From Owenia fusiformis (lineage: Eukaryota; Annelida; Polychaeta; Sabellida; Oweniidae): a stretch of 64,000 nt of DNA. Shown in pieces: positions 1 through 6,679 of this stretch. The notes under the pieces are model-generated. The model saw only the letters and a list, made by a program, of their open reading frames with translations. It searched no databases and was not told the DNA's origin. Position numbers and translations under genes: made by a program. Positions within the stretch are counted from its first letter, which is position 1, and every line of letters begins with the position of its first letter. The stretch spans positions 36,507,425 through 36,571,424 of the forward strand of contig CAIIXF020000010.1 in the NCBI GenBank assembly GCA_903813345.2. Reading direction: 5' to 3'.

Positions 1-40
1 GTGGAAACTGCATGATTTTTGGCCAGGGGGAGGTCTGAAT
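1..40. repeat. Fragment of dispersed repeat R1 (GGCCAGGGGG family)
   Basis: The words 'aaactgcatgattttt' followed by 'ggccaggggg' recur at 8851-9008, 37556-37722 and 50520-50695, and weakly at 16987-17098. The full unit at 37556-37722 starts with GGCCCGTAGCCAGGGGGGG, carries a central segment related to AAAATCATGCAGTTTTTCAC, and ends in a second homopolymer run. Probably a short non-autonomous mobile repeat; no coding capacity is seen. Confidence 0.6.
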
Positions 41-115
41 GACATAGTACTTTACTATGAAATGTGGCTACTCATCACTATGATTCAGTCAACTTTGTGG
101 TTTTATTGTACTTAC

Positions 116-353
116 TATTTCAGCCCAACGAGGCAATAAAAGTCTCTGATCATCCATAATCATCAACTTAACGTCGTTGTATTTGCTATTCGCAAGTGCC
201 GGTCCAAGGTCACTTGCTATAAAGTCTCGCTGGCTCTCGGCTGACCAGCCCATAGCTTGGAATGAAAATCGATCAATATTACCATCAGTGGGCTCATTTT
301 GAGCTGTTAAACCCCACATTGATATATTGTGTGACTCGTAAGCAGCCATAAAC
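116..353 (-). CDS. GBA1: GBA coding exon 6, copy b (candidate mutually exclusive exon)
   Basis: 238 nt, same length and phase as copy a, with acceptor cttccag and donor GTAAGT. It encodes FMAAYESHNISMWGL, TAQNEPTDG (Glu to Gln two before the acid/base Glu, which is kept), FQAMGWSAESQRDFIASDL and DDQRLLLPRWAEI. Differences cluster in the 8 residues after NEP and in ALANSKYND versus ALWDNGYKN. Splicing copy a directly to copy b would shift the frame and reach a TGA after 19 codons, so the two exons can only be used as alternatives in a productive message. A second gene copy is less likely, because 354-1291 holds no other GBA exon. Confidence 0.85.
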
Positions 354-3300
354 CTGGAAGAGTATATAATTACAAGCCTTAATTATGGGGTATAGTTTAG
401 CTAAATTATTTAAACCCCACATTGATATATTGTGTGACTCGTAAGCAGCTATAAACCTGGAAGAGTATATAATTACAAGGCTTAATTATGGGGTATAGTT
501 TAGCTAAATTATTTACCTAAAATGGAAGGGGTGAGGGACTGAGGGTTCCCTTAGAGAGCCTACAAAGGTTACTTATTAACTAAGTACAGTACTTAGCTTA
601 ACAGTCCTTTCTGAAAGCAATTATATATCATTTTAAAGCTTGCTTTTATTCAAAATTTGAGAATTACACAAATGTAAAGCGATTGCATAGAATGAATATA
701 CAAGACATGGGTGGGCCAATATGAATCCAGAAAGAGTTCAGCAGAACCCCAAATGCTGCATTAAGGCAACTAAAATGAATTTATAACAAGGGCTTACCCA
801 AGGGGGTTTCTGCTGTGTCACTGCTCACCGAGCAAATACGTATAGTAATTGTTATTCTTATTACATTTATTACATACTGTAACTAAATAATATCTCCAGG
901 ATTAGAGGGTCAGTAAATATAATAAATAACACATATACTGAACTTAACTAGCACACACACACACTGATATCATATACAGTATGCTTCCTCAGCCATCTAA
1001 TAGCTTAAATATAAATACCTAGTACCTACAGATAAAAAAGCGATTCTATTAAATAAATAAATATCAATACGATGATTAAATAAATAAATTAATTCGCTCA
1101 GTTGAATCTGGAAAAATATAATAAGCTCAGGTGTTAGATTTGAGACTGCCATCTATCTTAAATATCCCTGAAGATAAAATACTAACCATTATATAAAACT
1201 ATACAGCTCATTCGCATCTGGAAAAATAGAAAAGAAAGCTTAGGCGGTGGATAGGGATGGACGACAGACACTTCCTTAATAGAGAACTTACAGTTTCAGC
1301 CCAACCAGGGAGCATCAACCTCATATCGTCCAAAATCATGAGTTTAACGTTCTTATACCCATTGTCCCATAAAGCTGGACCTAAATCCTGGGCGATGAAA
1401 TCACGCTGCATTTCGGCAGTGAATCCCATGGCCTGAAAGAGGTAATCGGTCCTCAAACCCATGGTTGGCTCATTCTCTGCCGTGAGGCCCCAAACATGGA
1501 TACCATGTGATTCATAGGCCTGGAGGAACCTGAATAACATGCTATGGTTTAACATGCTATGCTTTAACATGCAAAATATGGAGGAGTGGAGAGAAATTAG
1601 CAAGGAACAAAGTACATACAGACATATGGTTAAAAATAAATTAGATGAAATACTAGTATAACATCCGAATAATGAATGAAAATAATGTTTTCAAAGATGA
1701 CATGAAATAAGGCGAGCATTACATATAAGACTCAAAGAAACACAGGAACAAACATCTACAAATATGAATAAATAAAGAAAACAATAAGAATATCATATTT
1801 ATCCACCAGGGGATATCAATATCTGCATTTTAATCTATTAAAACTTTGAAACCTGATCACCTTGACAACATCTGTGGTAAACAAATAAGACCTACTTGAT
1901 GAAATAATTGGCCCAAGTTTTGTAGTATTTTCCACCCGGACTTCCAATTAGAGTTCCCTTTCCCGTCATGTTTTGATTGGTCTTCATCCAAGCAGGGGCA
2001 CTCCATGGACTACCAAATATGGGTATATTCCTTCTACTCATTGCCATGGCTTTTTGTATGAAAGGTATCTGAAAAGTTTTGAGGAGAAAAATCAGATTAT
2101 CTACATTTAAATTACATGGGGAAGTGCCATATTTACCTTTGTCAAATACTGATTCTTTGATGGTTCATAAATGGTATTTTTGAAAACATCAAATAAATCT
2201 TGCTTGCTGCCACCCCCAGGCTGCCACCAGCTTCTTAACTGGAGGGACCACAGTTATCGTTTATCCGTGATAGAGAGAGAGAGTTCAGACACAACTCACC
2301 TTATATTTCAAATCTTCCATAGCCAATGAGAAATTCTTCAGATCAAAATCTCCTGGTGAATCATCATAAGAATATGGCCTTGTTGAGAAATCACATGACG
2401 CCATTGGGACTCTCCCCAGACTATATTCTATTCCTAAAAAATTTGAAAATGTTTTGGTAATTCATTTGCTTTAATATCAGAAACAAAAATACATTTAAAA
2501 TAAATCAATATGTGATTAATTTTTTTAATTAATCAAGCAATCCAAAACCCGAAATGGAAAAGTTGATCCCATCATTTAATCAAGACAGAAATCATGAATG
2601 TGTTTTTGTTATTCTAAACTGGTCTACTCATTAAAATTGTTGAGTCATGGATTTACCTTCTGGACTATAGTATGACTTGAGTAGATTAGTTTGAGTATCT
2701 GCACTCAAACTGGCAATGTTGATCCCAGCTGCATCAGTAAATGCTCCTCCGAATCCCAGAATACGTTGGAATGTGTGATTCTTAAACACGGTAAATACGA
2801 CATCATCTGAAAAGAATCTTTTAAAATAAATTGTACATTGAATCACTTATTCATTCATTTATGCAAGACATTCATTTAAAATAATCACAACTTAACAAAA
2901 CTTGATCTCCATTGGCTGGCCACACTACATTATGATTTTAACATGGAAGTTGATTAAGAGGTACATTGAAGGGGAAAAAAATATTTTTAAAATCCCTCCA
3001 TATTTAAAGACTTTTTGTCACTCCTTAGAAATCTTGGCAAAGTTTTTAGACCTTTAATCAAGGAATTCTATCTCATTTAAAGTGTGCTAACATATCTTGA
3101 AACTTAAAATCAACAAAGTGATTTTCTGCATAGCTAAAATTTTCAATCAATTCCTCAACTGAAGTAAGGTGCTGGATCCACTGGTGTTTTTGAAATTCAC
3201 CTTGCACCCACTTAAAATCCCATTTGCACCCCATTGAAAACCCATTTGCACTCAATTGAAAAATCATAAAAAATGACATACAGATTTTGAATATAACTAG

Positions 3301-5142
3301 CTGCAAAAAATTTGAATACTACCAAGAACCAGGGGCTTTCAATAGATTATTGAATGTCCATGCAAGAACAAAATTAATAGTTTAGGGTAATGGTTAAAGG
3401 ATTGAAGTCCAGGGATGAAAGAATCATGTAGGAATTTAAGTACAAGGACCTTATATGAGACTTTCAATGAGGGTGGTAGCCTGAATTCAATGCCTGACAT
3501 ACACTATACAAGACAAAAGAGTATCAAATCACCAATATTTCTTACGTACACCACTAAAAAGAATGAATTTTAATTTAAAAAAGTTACCTGAGCTATTGAG
3601 TGAACTTTTAAAAGTGTTAGAATTTCTTTTGAAGCGATCTCCTGCCTTGCTTGAGACGTAGATTGAATAAGAGCCTTTCTGGACCTTGATATTTGGTTCC
3701 ACTGTGTCACAATAGGTGGAGTTGCAAACACAAACATATGATCCTTTCCCATAATTTCTCGGCACGCATGGTTTCGATGCTAAAATATTGAAAGTAAGAT
3801 AAACAAGTAAGCATAGGTTGAAATCCAAGATGTATATAATTGGATACATAACGACACAAAAATGTGTTTCAACTACTGTTACAATACAAGTCACGCAATG
3901 AAATGTTACAGCCAAAAAACAATGGTCCTCCAGAAAGTTCTCCTTTCCTAAATTCCTTCGAGCTGATTGAGCACGTTATAAGGAAAACAAATCATTAGGT
4001 CTTATTATTCTTCAAATAGCTTTGCAATAGACATGAGGTATGTGACGTGTGACAGCGTATAGTTAGTGCCGAAAATTATCAAAATATAACAGAAGACTCA
4101 TTTACAAAGGCCCAGAAACATGTATAAAAATCGAGTCAAATACCACCAAGTATTGGTGTATTTGACTGATTTTTCATACATGTTCCCGGGACTATGCTAG
4201 CTCATTTAGTCCTGAGACCATCATAAATCTATGTTTGTCTCAGTTTAGTCTAATGTAGTTGTAACAACCCTTGATAGCAAGTTGCTACTATGGCCCAGCT
4301 GTAGTGGCTTAAGCCTTTATAGATTAGTTGGTAGAGCATCAGTCTTCAGGGCTCTCACCAGGAAATATTTAGGGTGTGGTGCTAACATCTTCAGAATAAC
4401 CGTTCAATCGTGATAAATCATATTATACCATAAAAGTGTTATGTTTTATCCTTTTTACATGCTATTATTGTATATTCGGTCAAGTTTAGACTGTGGAAAC
4501 AGTCATGATTTGCCAATAGGGTGTGGAGGGAGCTAAATAGAGTGTGGTGCTGCGCCACAGTCTAAAAGCCTGGCGAGAGCCCTGGTCTTAGGATCAAATG
4601 GTCCTAGGTTCGATTCCCACACGGGGCATTGAATTTTGCACACTTTTTTCAATTTCTTTATCTGGCTCAGATCCCTTGTCATAGTTTTTGCTTCAAAGCA
4701 GTCGATTTACGTCACCATACAAAAAACTGTACTCCGCTACTTTTTGACGTTGATGGTTAGGCGTGAAAATGAGGAACGGAGAAAAGGTCTTGGAACAAGA
4801 TACCTGTAAGGCAGAAGTCTTGTTCCAGTGCAATATGCCTATGATAAACAATGATACTGTATAAAAAATTTGAGTTACAATTCAGAAATCATCCAATATC
4901 CTCCCCTCACACATAAAAAAACTAAAATCACCTGATGGCCTGATCTGATCAGCAACCCTCTCAAAGTTTGGCCTGATTCGCTCTCATGTCTAAATCCCTT
5001 TATTTGAGGTAATAAGCAATTAGTGTAATCAAACACTTCGAAAAATAGACAAGATATGAACTCCAAACATACCTGTTGCTTGAAAGACCTGTATTATCCA
5101 CATAAATAGGAAAATAGACAAGACATTATATTTGTTTTCCAT
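116..5142 (-). CDS. GBA1: Glucosylceramidase (lysosomal acid beta-glucosidase, GH30), 5' part; runs off left edge
   Basis: Hydrolyses glucosylceramide to glucose and ceramide in the lysosome. Exons in transcript order: 5142-5073 (start codon, hydrophobic signal peptide containing LSIFLFMWII), 3779-3588, 2806-2657, 2433-2300, 2068-1896, then either 1529-1292 or 353-116. All junctions are GT-AG and phases join without a break, giving 319 residues. Family landmarks seen: the cysteine-rich N-terminus (KPCVPRNYGKGSYVCVCN), LGFGGAFTDAA, RVPMASCDFSTRPY, FGSPWSAPAWMKTN, and TAENEP, whose second Glu (about residue 260) is the GH30 acid/base. Exon lengths 192, 134, 173 and 238 match my recollection of vertebrate GBA1. 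The nucleophile Glu and C-terminal half lie left of the window. Identity is firm; the odd point is the duplicated sixth coding exon, listed separately. Confidence 0.93.
308..515. repeat. 103-bp tandem duplication covering the exon 6b acceptor
   Basis: Positions 308-410 are repeated almost perfectly at 411-513. Read on the minus strand, the unit carries the exon 6b acceptor and its first 46 bases, so a second, truncated acceptor sits near 457 upstream of the real one. The truncated copy reads F-I-A-A-Y-E-S-H before running into intron sequence. The near identity of the copies suggests a recent event. Confidence 0.9.
1292..1529 (-). CDS. GBA1: GBA coding exon 6, copy a (candidate mutually exclusive exon)
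   Basis: 238 nt, acceptor ttattcag and donor GTAAGT. The first base completes the Lys codon left open by exon 5 (1896), and the exon ends on a codon boundary. It encodes 79 residues beginning FLQAYESHGIHVWGL, including TAENEPTMG with the acid/base Glu, FQAMGFTAEMQRDFIAQDL and LMILDDMRLMLPGWAET. It is the copy nearest exon 5 and keeps the AENEP sequence as in vertebrates. About 51 of 79 residues match copy b by hand count. No stop or frameshift is present, so it looks functional. Confidence 0.9.
4118..4183. repeat. Short perfect-looking hairpin in GBA intron 1
   Basis: The arm 4118-4147 and its near reverse complement 4155-4183 are separated by a 7-base loop. Arms are about 29 nt with one or two mismatches or gaps. 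Could be a remnant of a foldback transposon or a small structured RNA; nothing else supports either. Confidence 0.6.
4303..4640 (+). repeat. tRNA-like SINE head split by an inserted element
   Basis: Two halves of a tRNA-like sequence flank the element at 4347-4584. The left half has TAGTTGGTAGAGC, like a D-arm/A box. The right half has GGTTCGATTCC, a perfect RNA polymerase III B box, and ends in cacacggggca. Joined, the halves do not give a clean acceptor or anticodon stem, so this looks like a tRNA-derived SINE or decayed tRNA rather than a working tRNA gene. It lies in GBA intron 1, antisense to the gene. Confidence 0.55.
4347..4584. mobile_element. hAT-like non-autonomous DNA transposon (238 bp)
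   Basis: The terminal inverted repeats are CAGGGCTCTCACCAGG at the left and CCTGGCGAGAGCCCTG at the right (one mismatch). The element is flanked by perfect 5-bp duplications GTCTT at 4342-4346 and 4585-4589. CAGGG ends with a 5-bp target duplication fit hAT-type (hAT5-like) elements. There is no open reading frame. It interrupts the tRNA-like sequence described above. Confidence 0.75.
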
Positions 5143-5580
5143 TTTACCGGTCAGGTCAAAGGTCATGGGATTTGTCTAAAATTCCAACTTTGAATTAAAA
5201 ATATTATTATATCATGATATTACAATATTGCGCCATAAAAGGTATTTTATTTTACATATTTTATCATTCATTTTTATTTTCTATACACCTATTATCAATT
5301 ATCTATGGCAAAGTTTACAAATATACGATTTCATCTTTTTCGTTCAAAGAGAAAGTTTGGAATTTAGTAATAATTCTTGTGCTTCCGGTTTTGTTTTTCA
5401 GAAAGCATAATTTCAATTTGCTATACTATTCTTTGGATATTAGAGAACTGTGTAGGTATTAAATGCAGAATTGTATTTCAATGGTGTCTAATATATACCC
5501 TGGTGTATGTCACATGTAATTGTGAGCTCTTCTTCAAATTTCACCTCCAATGTAGATAATAAGGTCACGACTCAAGGGGT
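5143..5580. other. Divergent intergenic stretch next to GBA start; nothing recognised
   Basis: AT-rich DNA just upstream of the GBA start codon, which should hold its promoter and 5' untranslated region. No TATA box, CpG cluster or conserved site could be picked out by eye. The short open frames here have no protein-like composition. Confidence 0.5.
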
Positions 5581-5584
5581 GTCT

Positions 5585-6455
5585 TCCCATTTCGCCCCTT
5601 CCGACTTTGCCCCTTCGCATTTCGCCCCTCATTTATTCCCATTTGGCCCCTACCCATTTGGCCCCTTCCCATTTGGCCCTTTTCTCAAAATGCCCCTTTC
5701 CCATTTTGCCCCTCTTCTATTTCGCCCCTGTCCCATTTATTTTGCCCCTCATTCCCCCTTCGCCCCTTCCCATTTCGCCCCTTCCCAATTGGCCCCTTTC
5801 CCATTTCATCCCTCGTTCATTCCCTTTTCGCCCCTTCCCATTTCGCCCCTAATTTATTCCCATTTTGCCCCTACCCATTTCACCCCTTTCCCAAATATGA
5901 TTGGTCAATGCGACGTTTAAGTAGGCGGAGCTTAAAGCTGGCATGCAGCTTGCATCTCCTTATATGTTACCAGTTCTGACACAAGGGGCGATAGACAAGG
6001 GGTGAAATGGGAAAGGGGCAAAATGGGACTGAATGAGGGGCAAAATTGAAAGGGGTGAAATGGGAAGGGGCCAATTGGGAAGGGGCGAAATGGGAAAGGG
6101 GCACAATGGGACTGAATGAGAGGCAAAATGGGAAGGGGCGAAATGGAGAAGGGGCGAAATGGAGAAGGGGCGAGATGGGAAGGGGCGAAATGGGAAGGGG
6201 CGATCGCGATAAGAGAAAGGGGCGATATGGGAAGGGGACAACACGGGAAAGGGGTGAAATGGCAAAGGGGCAAAATGGGAAAGGGGCGAAATGGGAAAGG
6301 GGCCAATTGGGAAGGGGCGAAATGGGAATAAATGAGGGGCGAGATGGGAAGGGGCGAAATGGGAAAGGGGCCAATTGGGAAGGGGCGAAATGGGAATAAA
6401 TGAGGGGCGAGATGGGAAGGGGCGAAATGGGAAGGGGCGAAATGGGAATAAACCG
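5585..6455. repeat. Minisatellite in two opposed blocks forming a long inverted repeat
   Basis: At 5585-5895 the motif CCCATTTCGCCCCTTC (about 16 bp, degenerate, variants with GGCC and TTGCC) runs on the plus strand. At 5990-6455 the reverse complement, GAAATGGGAAGGGGCG, runs as a second block. About 95 bp of unique sequence separate them. The long open frames here (Pro-Phe-rich or Gly-Lys-Trp-rich) follow only from the repeat and are not genes. The block lies between the divergent GBA and SUB1 genes. Confidence 0.9.
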
Positions 6456-6679
6456 ACTCAAGGTGCATGTTCGGAATTTTGCTGCAACCCTCAATAGGGT
6501 CACATGTTATTTTTTTAAATTTGAATCACTCCTTCCCCACAATGTCTACAGTGTCCAGTGTGGTACCTCTCTCCACCACAGGAACTTCTGTGTTGCAGGG
6601 GGCACCTGTGGAAATACCGAAGCTACCGATCAAGTCAGTTCAACATCAGTATGAATGCTTGTTACCTGTCAGTTTCATT

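Follow-up and report, generated by a model that had tools for sequence, protein, structure and literature searches.

The annelid Owenia fusiformis has a single GBA gene in which the exon encoding the acid/base glutamate was most likely duplicated in tandem long ago, with both copies kept as homologous mutually exclusive exons and both spliced. Judged from the DNA, the two exons, termed 6a and 6b, are a real and selected alternative pair; their exclusive use is very probable, and a functional difference between the resulting isoforms is plausible. An initial annotation of the window (the whole stretch of 64,000 nt analyzed here, positions 36,507,425 to 36,571,424 of contig CAIIXF020000010.1) had proposed mutually exclusive exons at this locus. 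Of that proposal the following stands: one gene contains two homologous exons as alternatives, selection has acted on each, and the reading frame enforces exclusivity; the use of both in vivo is what we infer.

A complete glucosylceramidase gene with two acid/base exons

When 20 kb of left flank was included, the minus strand was found to carry a complete GBA1-type glucosylceramidase gene, the 3′ end of which lies beyond the left edge of the window (Table 1). The GBA introns are GT-AG, and exons 6a and 6b, which are separated by an intron of 938 nt, share the same phases (2 at the start and 0 at the end). We re-derived the coordinates of the exons, the equal lengths of 6a and 6b, their GT-AG sites, common phases and open frames, and their identity of 51 of 79 residues, and all were as the initial annotation had them. 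The exon lengths of 192, 134, 173, 238, 225, 164 and 117 nt are presumably those of human GBA1, exon 3 being different at 150 nt here against 147. Human GBA1, the same enzyme, has one version of the acid/base exon, against two in Owenia.

Table 1. Features of the GBA locus (negative positions lie to the left of the window)
Feature	Position	Strand	Description
GBA exon 1	5073..5142	(-)	start codon, signal-peptide-like N terminus
GBA exon 2	3588..3779	(-)	gene model, alignment to human GCase
GBA exon 3	2657..2806	(-)	gene model
GBA exon 4	2300..2433	(-)	gene model
GBA exon 5	1896..2068	(-)	gene model; precedes both alternative exons in the message, phase 2 at its end
Candidate Fox-1 sites	1538..1573	(-)	three GCATG motifs, the first TGCATG, just upstream of the 6a acceptor
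Alternative exon 6a	1292..1529	(-)	238 nt, TAENEP form, Met at the human Gln284 position
Tandem duplication	307..515	(-)	103 bp, 2 copies with 2 differences (98% identical); contains the 6b acceptor and the first 47 nt of 6b
Alternative exon 6b	116..353	(-)	238 nt, TAQNEP form, Gln at the human Gln284 position
Intron 3′ of exon 6b	1..115	(-)	beginning of the intron
GBA exon 7	-448..-672	(-)	left of window, locus L004
GBA exon 8	-1002..-1165	(-)	left of window, locus L004
GBA exon 9	-1431..-1547	(-)	left of window, locus L004
GBA exon 10	-1747..-1852	(-)	left of window, locus L004; ends in TAA

Isoforms A and B scored 500 and 497 bits, respectively, against the Pfam GH30 profile PF02055, and 47 bits against PF17189, so that the whole protein is accounted for as a GH30 TIM barrel with a C-terminal beta domain. 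Human lysosomal GCase (PDB 1ogs, 6t13) was matched by isoform A at 589.7 bits and the next solved GH30 at 214 bits, a comparison of scores and not a tree; the identity to human GCase is 249 of 503 compared residues. Taken individually, exons 6a and 6b scored 103.7 and 101.8 bits against GH30, which excludes chance. Both cover human GCase residues 216-294 and both contain the acid/base residue Glu235, while the region of the nucleophile Glu340 (STEAC, aligned to human ASEAC) is in the common exon 7. The predicted gene product is a GBA1-type lysosomal glucosylceramidase.

Two further features of the locus were seen. An in-frame stretch of 102 nt in intron 4 (window 2137-2238, minus strand) is open, has AG/GT flanks and occurs as a single copy in a DNA search; as a possible cassette exon it would add 34 residues between exons 4 and 5, with the frame staying open to the end. 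It was dropped as a regular GBA exon because human GCase has no counterpart there. Just upstream of the gene, at about 5500-6500 of the window, lies a dense array of short GGGGCGAAATGGGAA-like repeats with several overlapping, probably spurious open frames.

Only single inclusion of 6a or 6b preserves the reading frame

In spliced translation, 6a alone or 6b alone gave a protein of 522 aa. When both exons were joined, translation ended after 338 residues, at a stop 684 nt ahead of the last junction; this stop is the 20th codon past the 6a/6b junction, in agreement with the TGA within 20 codons that the initial annotation had described. When both were skipped, translation ended after 299 residues, and the stop lay 325 nt ahead of the last junction. 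Under the usual 50-nt rule, messages with double inclusion or double skipping are therefore expected to be targets of nonsense-mediated decay. As far as the translations go, only single inclusion of one or the other exon keeps the frame.

Such unproductive messages could also be the purpose of the arrangement. Both exons might be spliced with the swap being neutral, or serving mainly to tune the level of GBA, given that double inclusion, skipping and use of the acceptor upstream of 6b (described below) all end in premature stops, as in splicing-coupled decay. We regard this as unlikely: one poison exon would suffice for such tuning, which makes two separately conserved coding exons unnecessary, and the substitutions between 6a and 6b hit positions of the ligand cleft.

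Both copies have been maintained by selection

The 79 codons of 6a and 6b are identical at 135 of 237 bases, and the 102 differences are spread over codon positions 1, 2 and 3 at 27, 18 and 57 codons. We obtained a pN of 0.29 and a pS of 0.97. Because the latter exceeds the Jukes-Cantor limit, synonymous sites are saturated, and the dN/dS comparison suggested in the initial annotation yields these two proportions with neither a dS nor a ratio. We then simulated 5000 neutral copies, placing all changes on one branch starting from 6a up to the observed 102 differences. The simulated copies retained a mean of 22.2 and a maximum of 32 of 79 identical residues, against 51 observed. Together with the conservation of residues despite saturated synonymous sites, this agrees with the earlier view that selection has kept both copies.

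It is nevertheless conceivable that only one copy is used and that its duplicate is dead or almost so, with an intact frame that is a remnant. An open frame by itself is weak proof against this, since 261 of the 5000 neutral copies (about 5%) stayed open; moreover, the pyrimidine tract at the 6a acceptor is the poorest of the gene (8/16), and the 6b acceptor is duplicated. We consider a dead copy improbable, however, since synonymous saturation goes with strong amino-acid conservation, and splice sites and exact length are intact in both copies. The two are also about equally close to the human enzyme, which matches 6a at 44 and 6b at 41 of 79 residues. At the 28 sites where the copies differ, human GCase sides with 6a at 8, with 6b at 5 and with neither at 15 (chi2 0.69). 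With such near-equal closeness and no asymmetry of rate, neither copy looks released from constraint.

The distance between 6a and 6b is 0.44, compared with 0.59 and 0.66 to human, a crude ratio of about 0.7. This suggests that the exon pair is old and should occur in related invertebrates. The 103-bp tandem duplication at the 6b acceptor is recent and may be polymorphic. Its extra acceptor, just above position 456, would if used produce a premature stop at codon 294; 6b could accordingly be weakened in this individual by a competing acceptor that breaks the frame.

6b appears to be part of the one GBA gene

Among the best-scoring candidates of a genome-wide GH30 search there were 12 matches, seven of them at the GBA locus (6a, 6b and five other segments with one match apiece) and the other five on contig C4, with no further GBA1-type match elsewhere in the genome. 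A tblastn search with both isoforms of the 84 kb comprising the left flank and the window found every other exon once, plus a partial duplicate of 47 nt of 6b. It gave no second copy of those exons, the remaining matches having E above 0.5. The initial annotation had left room for 6b to belong to a separate partial gene on the left. The flank holds one set of exons 7-10, closed by the stop codon, and the other exons are single in the 84 kb, so that 6b does not look like a piece of such a separate gene.

A related account, in which 6b is what remains of a second tandem GBA gene that was mostly deleted and had its own or shared transcription, is very improbable. The data do not distinguish duplication of the exon from duplication of the whole gene with later loss of its remaining exons, and the introns around 6a and 6b match by no more than 20 nt (best E 0.04). 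Against a separate gene, 6b is placed between 6a and the sole exon 7, and neither a second copy of the other exons in the 84 kb nor a further GBA1-type match among the best GH30 candidates was found. That an allele or paralog was stitched into the gene during assembly deserves almost no credence: assemblers do sometimes make patterns like the 98% identical repeat at 6b, but with 102 of 237 nt different, 6a and 6b are far above the allelic level, and a DNA search of the genome gave no second full copy of either.

The GH30 genes at three places on C4 (L026, L027 and L028) look, by eye and with no tree, intron-poor and of another type, with the peptide ITVQNEPL. A lateral or paralogous origin of 6b was rejected. 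Prokaryote contigs, scanned once for the 6b peptide, gave 27 pattern matches and no relative.

The two exons differ at positions of the ligand cleft

In human numbering, W228, T231, N234, E235, P236, F246, D282, D283 and R285 are kept in both exons. Positions 241, 244, 245, 246 and 284 read R, Y, L, F, M in 6a and I, F, S, F, Q in 6b; human Leu241 is thus Arg in 6a and Ile in 6b, Pro245 is Leu or Ser, and Gln284 is Met or Gln. The residues after NEP had been described as those that differ most. All six positions from 240 to 245 do differ between the exons, and the permutation p of 0.07 for a run of that length makes the clustering suggestive only. The related claim, that the differences lie near the rim of the active site, gains support from human GCase crystals. 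In these, a hydrophobic cavity at the dimer interface is formed by Leu241, Tyr244, Pro245, Phe246 and Tyr313, and a substrate-like aziridine in the narrow cleft is held through its N-acyl carbonyl by a hydrogen bond from Gln284, a residue also printed there as Glu284 and Gln283 (PMC9298352). Of these positions, 241, 244, 245 and 284 differ between 6a and 6b.

We infer that the swap would alter the binding of the aglycone or of a partner with the chemistry unchanged. If 6a and 6b are spliced in different cells or stages, two active enzymes would result, both with the catalytic residues kept, and these would differ in the lipid (aglycone) cleft and in the hydrophobic interface pocket.

A candidate switch at the 6a acceptor

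The donors of both exons are gtaagt and the acceptors cag, U2-like by eye, which removes a U2/U12 mismatch as the mechanism of exclusion. Exclusion by steric hindrance goes with a very short intron of about 60 nt or less, and the intron between 6a and 6b is too long for it. For competing RNA docking sites, 47, 3 and 5 of 60 shuffles paired equally strongly in the three intron pairs compared (uncorrected for three pairs); no pair was convincing, none clearly exceeding its shuffles.

Within 60 nt of the 6a acceptor, by contrast with the 10 other acceptors checked (the duplicated one included), which have none, there are three GCATG motifs. Neither strand of the window has another such GCATG triplet. 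When the intron was shuffled 5000 times, 13 of the shuffles reached three motifs, the cluster having been spotted before testing. The triplet sits on a 15-nt tandem repeat (array 1535-1572), and the three copies are therefore not independent. The 6a acceptor is also the poorest in pyrimidines among the GBA acceptors, with 8 of 16 against 9 to 12 at the others. Exons for Fox-1-like RRMs were found on contig C9, with matches of 80% over 35 residues and 78% over 23.

There is precedent for this layout. For exons 5A/5B of C. elegans egl-15 and exons 8/9 of FGFR2, Fox-1 family proteins act through a UGCAUG to repress the exclusive exon that follows it (PMC3585155, PMC2880598). The motif lies in the intron upstream of one exclusive exon, as at 6a; these are receptor genes in which binding and effect of Fox-1 were shown, and in Owenia GBA it is the motif that is seen. 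The UGCAUG of unc-32, a proton-pump subunit with exons 7a/7b, is in intron 7b (PMC3585155), a layout different from that of 6a. In Owenia, the weak 6a acceptor might be the point of choice: a Fox-1 family protein bound to the three GCAUG there would block 6a, and splicing would proceed to 6b. We offer this switch tentatively, as one possibility for how the exon is chosen.

Comparison with known exon switches in enzymes

As a positive control we examined coq-2. According to the published account, its exons 6a and 6e occur in nematodes, flatworms, annelids and molluscs, and their swap alters residues beside the active site and switches the substrate; the two forms carry Phe/Leu and Ala/Ser at two named positions, and the C. 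elegans exon of 134 nt is not a multiple of three (PMC7434440). In Owenia, the coq-2 gene (C2:21736600-21744600, L033) has an exon pair in which one exon carries Leu and Ser and the other Phe and Ala, as placed by motif. By reading, these exons are of unequal length, at 131 and 134 nt. Three UbiA loci were compared, and self-comparison of the other two, L032 (C9) and L029 (C1), gave no coq-2-like exon pair. The coq-2 pair fits the published switch, and the same exon anatomy therefore belongs, in this genome, to an enzyme switch of a proven kind. Both coq-2 and GBA have homologous mutually exclusive exons, of a length that is not a multiple of three, in a metabolic enzyme. Enzyme and fold are different, and for coq-2 splicing, phenotype and product switch were shown experimentally, whereas GBA is known from sequence. 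The intron that separates the alternative coq-2 exons also has three TGCATG in a stretch of about 130 nt.

Ketohexokinase (exons 3a/3c) and PKM (exons 9/10) resemble GBA in that a single-copy gene for a metabolic enzyme holds homologous exons in tandem; neither is a glycosidase. The PKM swap is described under protein interactions and tetramer state, and not as one of an acid/base segment (PMC7954323). A limited literature search found no earlier description in print of mutually exclusive exons in GBA.

Significance

GCase is the enzyme of Gaucher disease, and its gene is a major risk gene for Parkinson disease. In its fullest form, our reading would be of an ancient switch controlled by Fox-1 that yields two lysosomal glucosylceramidases, with the same catalytic pair and different lipid clefts and interface pockets (Gln284 versus Met284 with Arg241), for different sphingolipids or conditions; this is speculative, and we hold it possible rather than probable. 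One invertebrate GBA gene probably has the capacity for two enzyme forms, the type of exon switch itself being already known in other enzymes. Two natural, selection-tested catalytic segments in one protein background would constitute a ready experiment on how residues of the cleft and the interface bear on substrate choice and stability.
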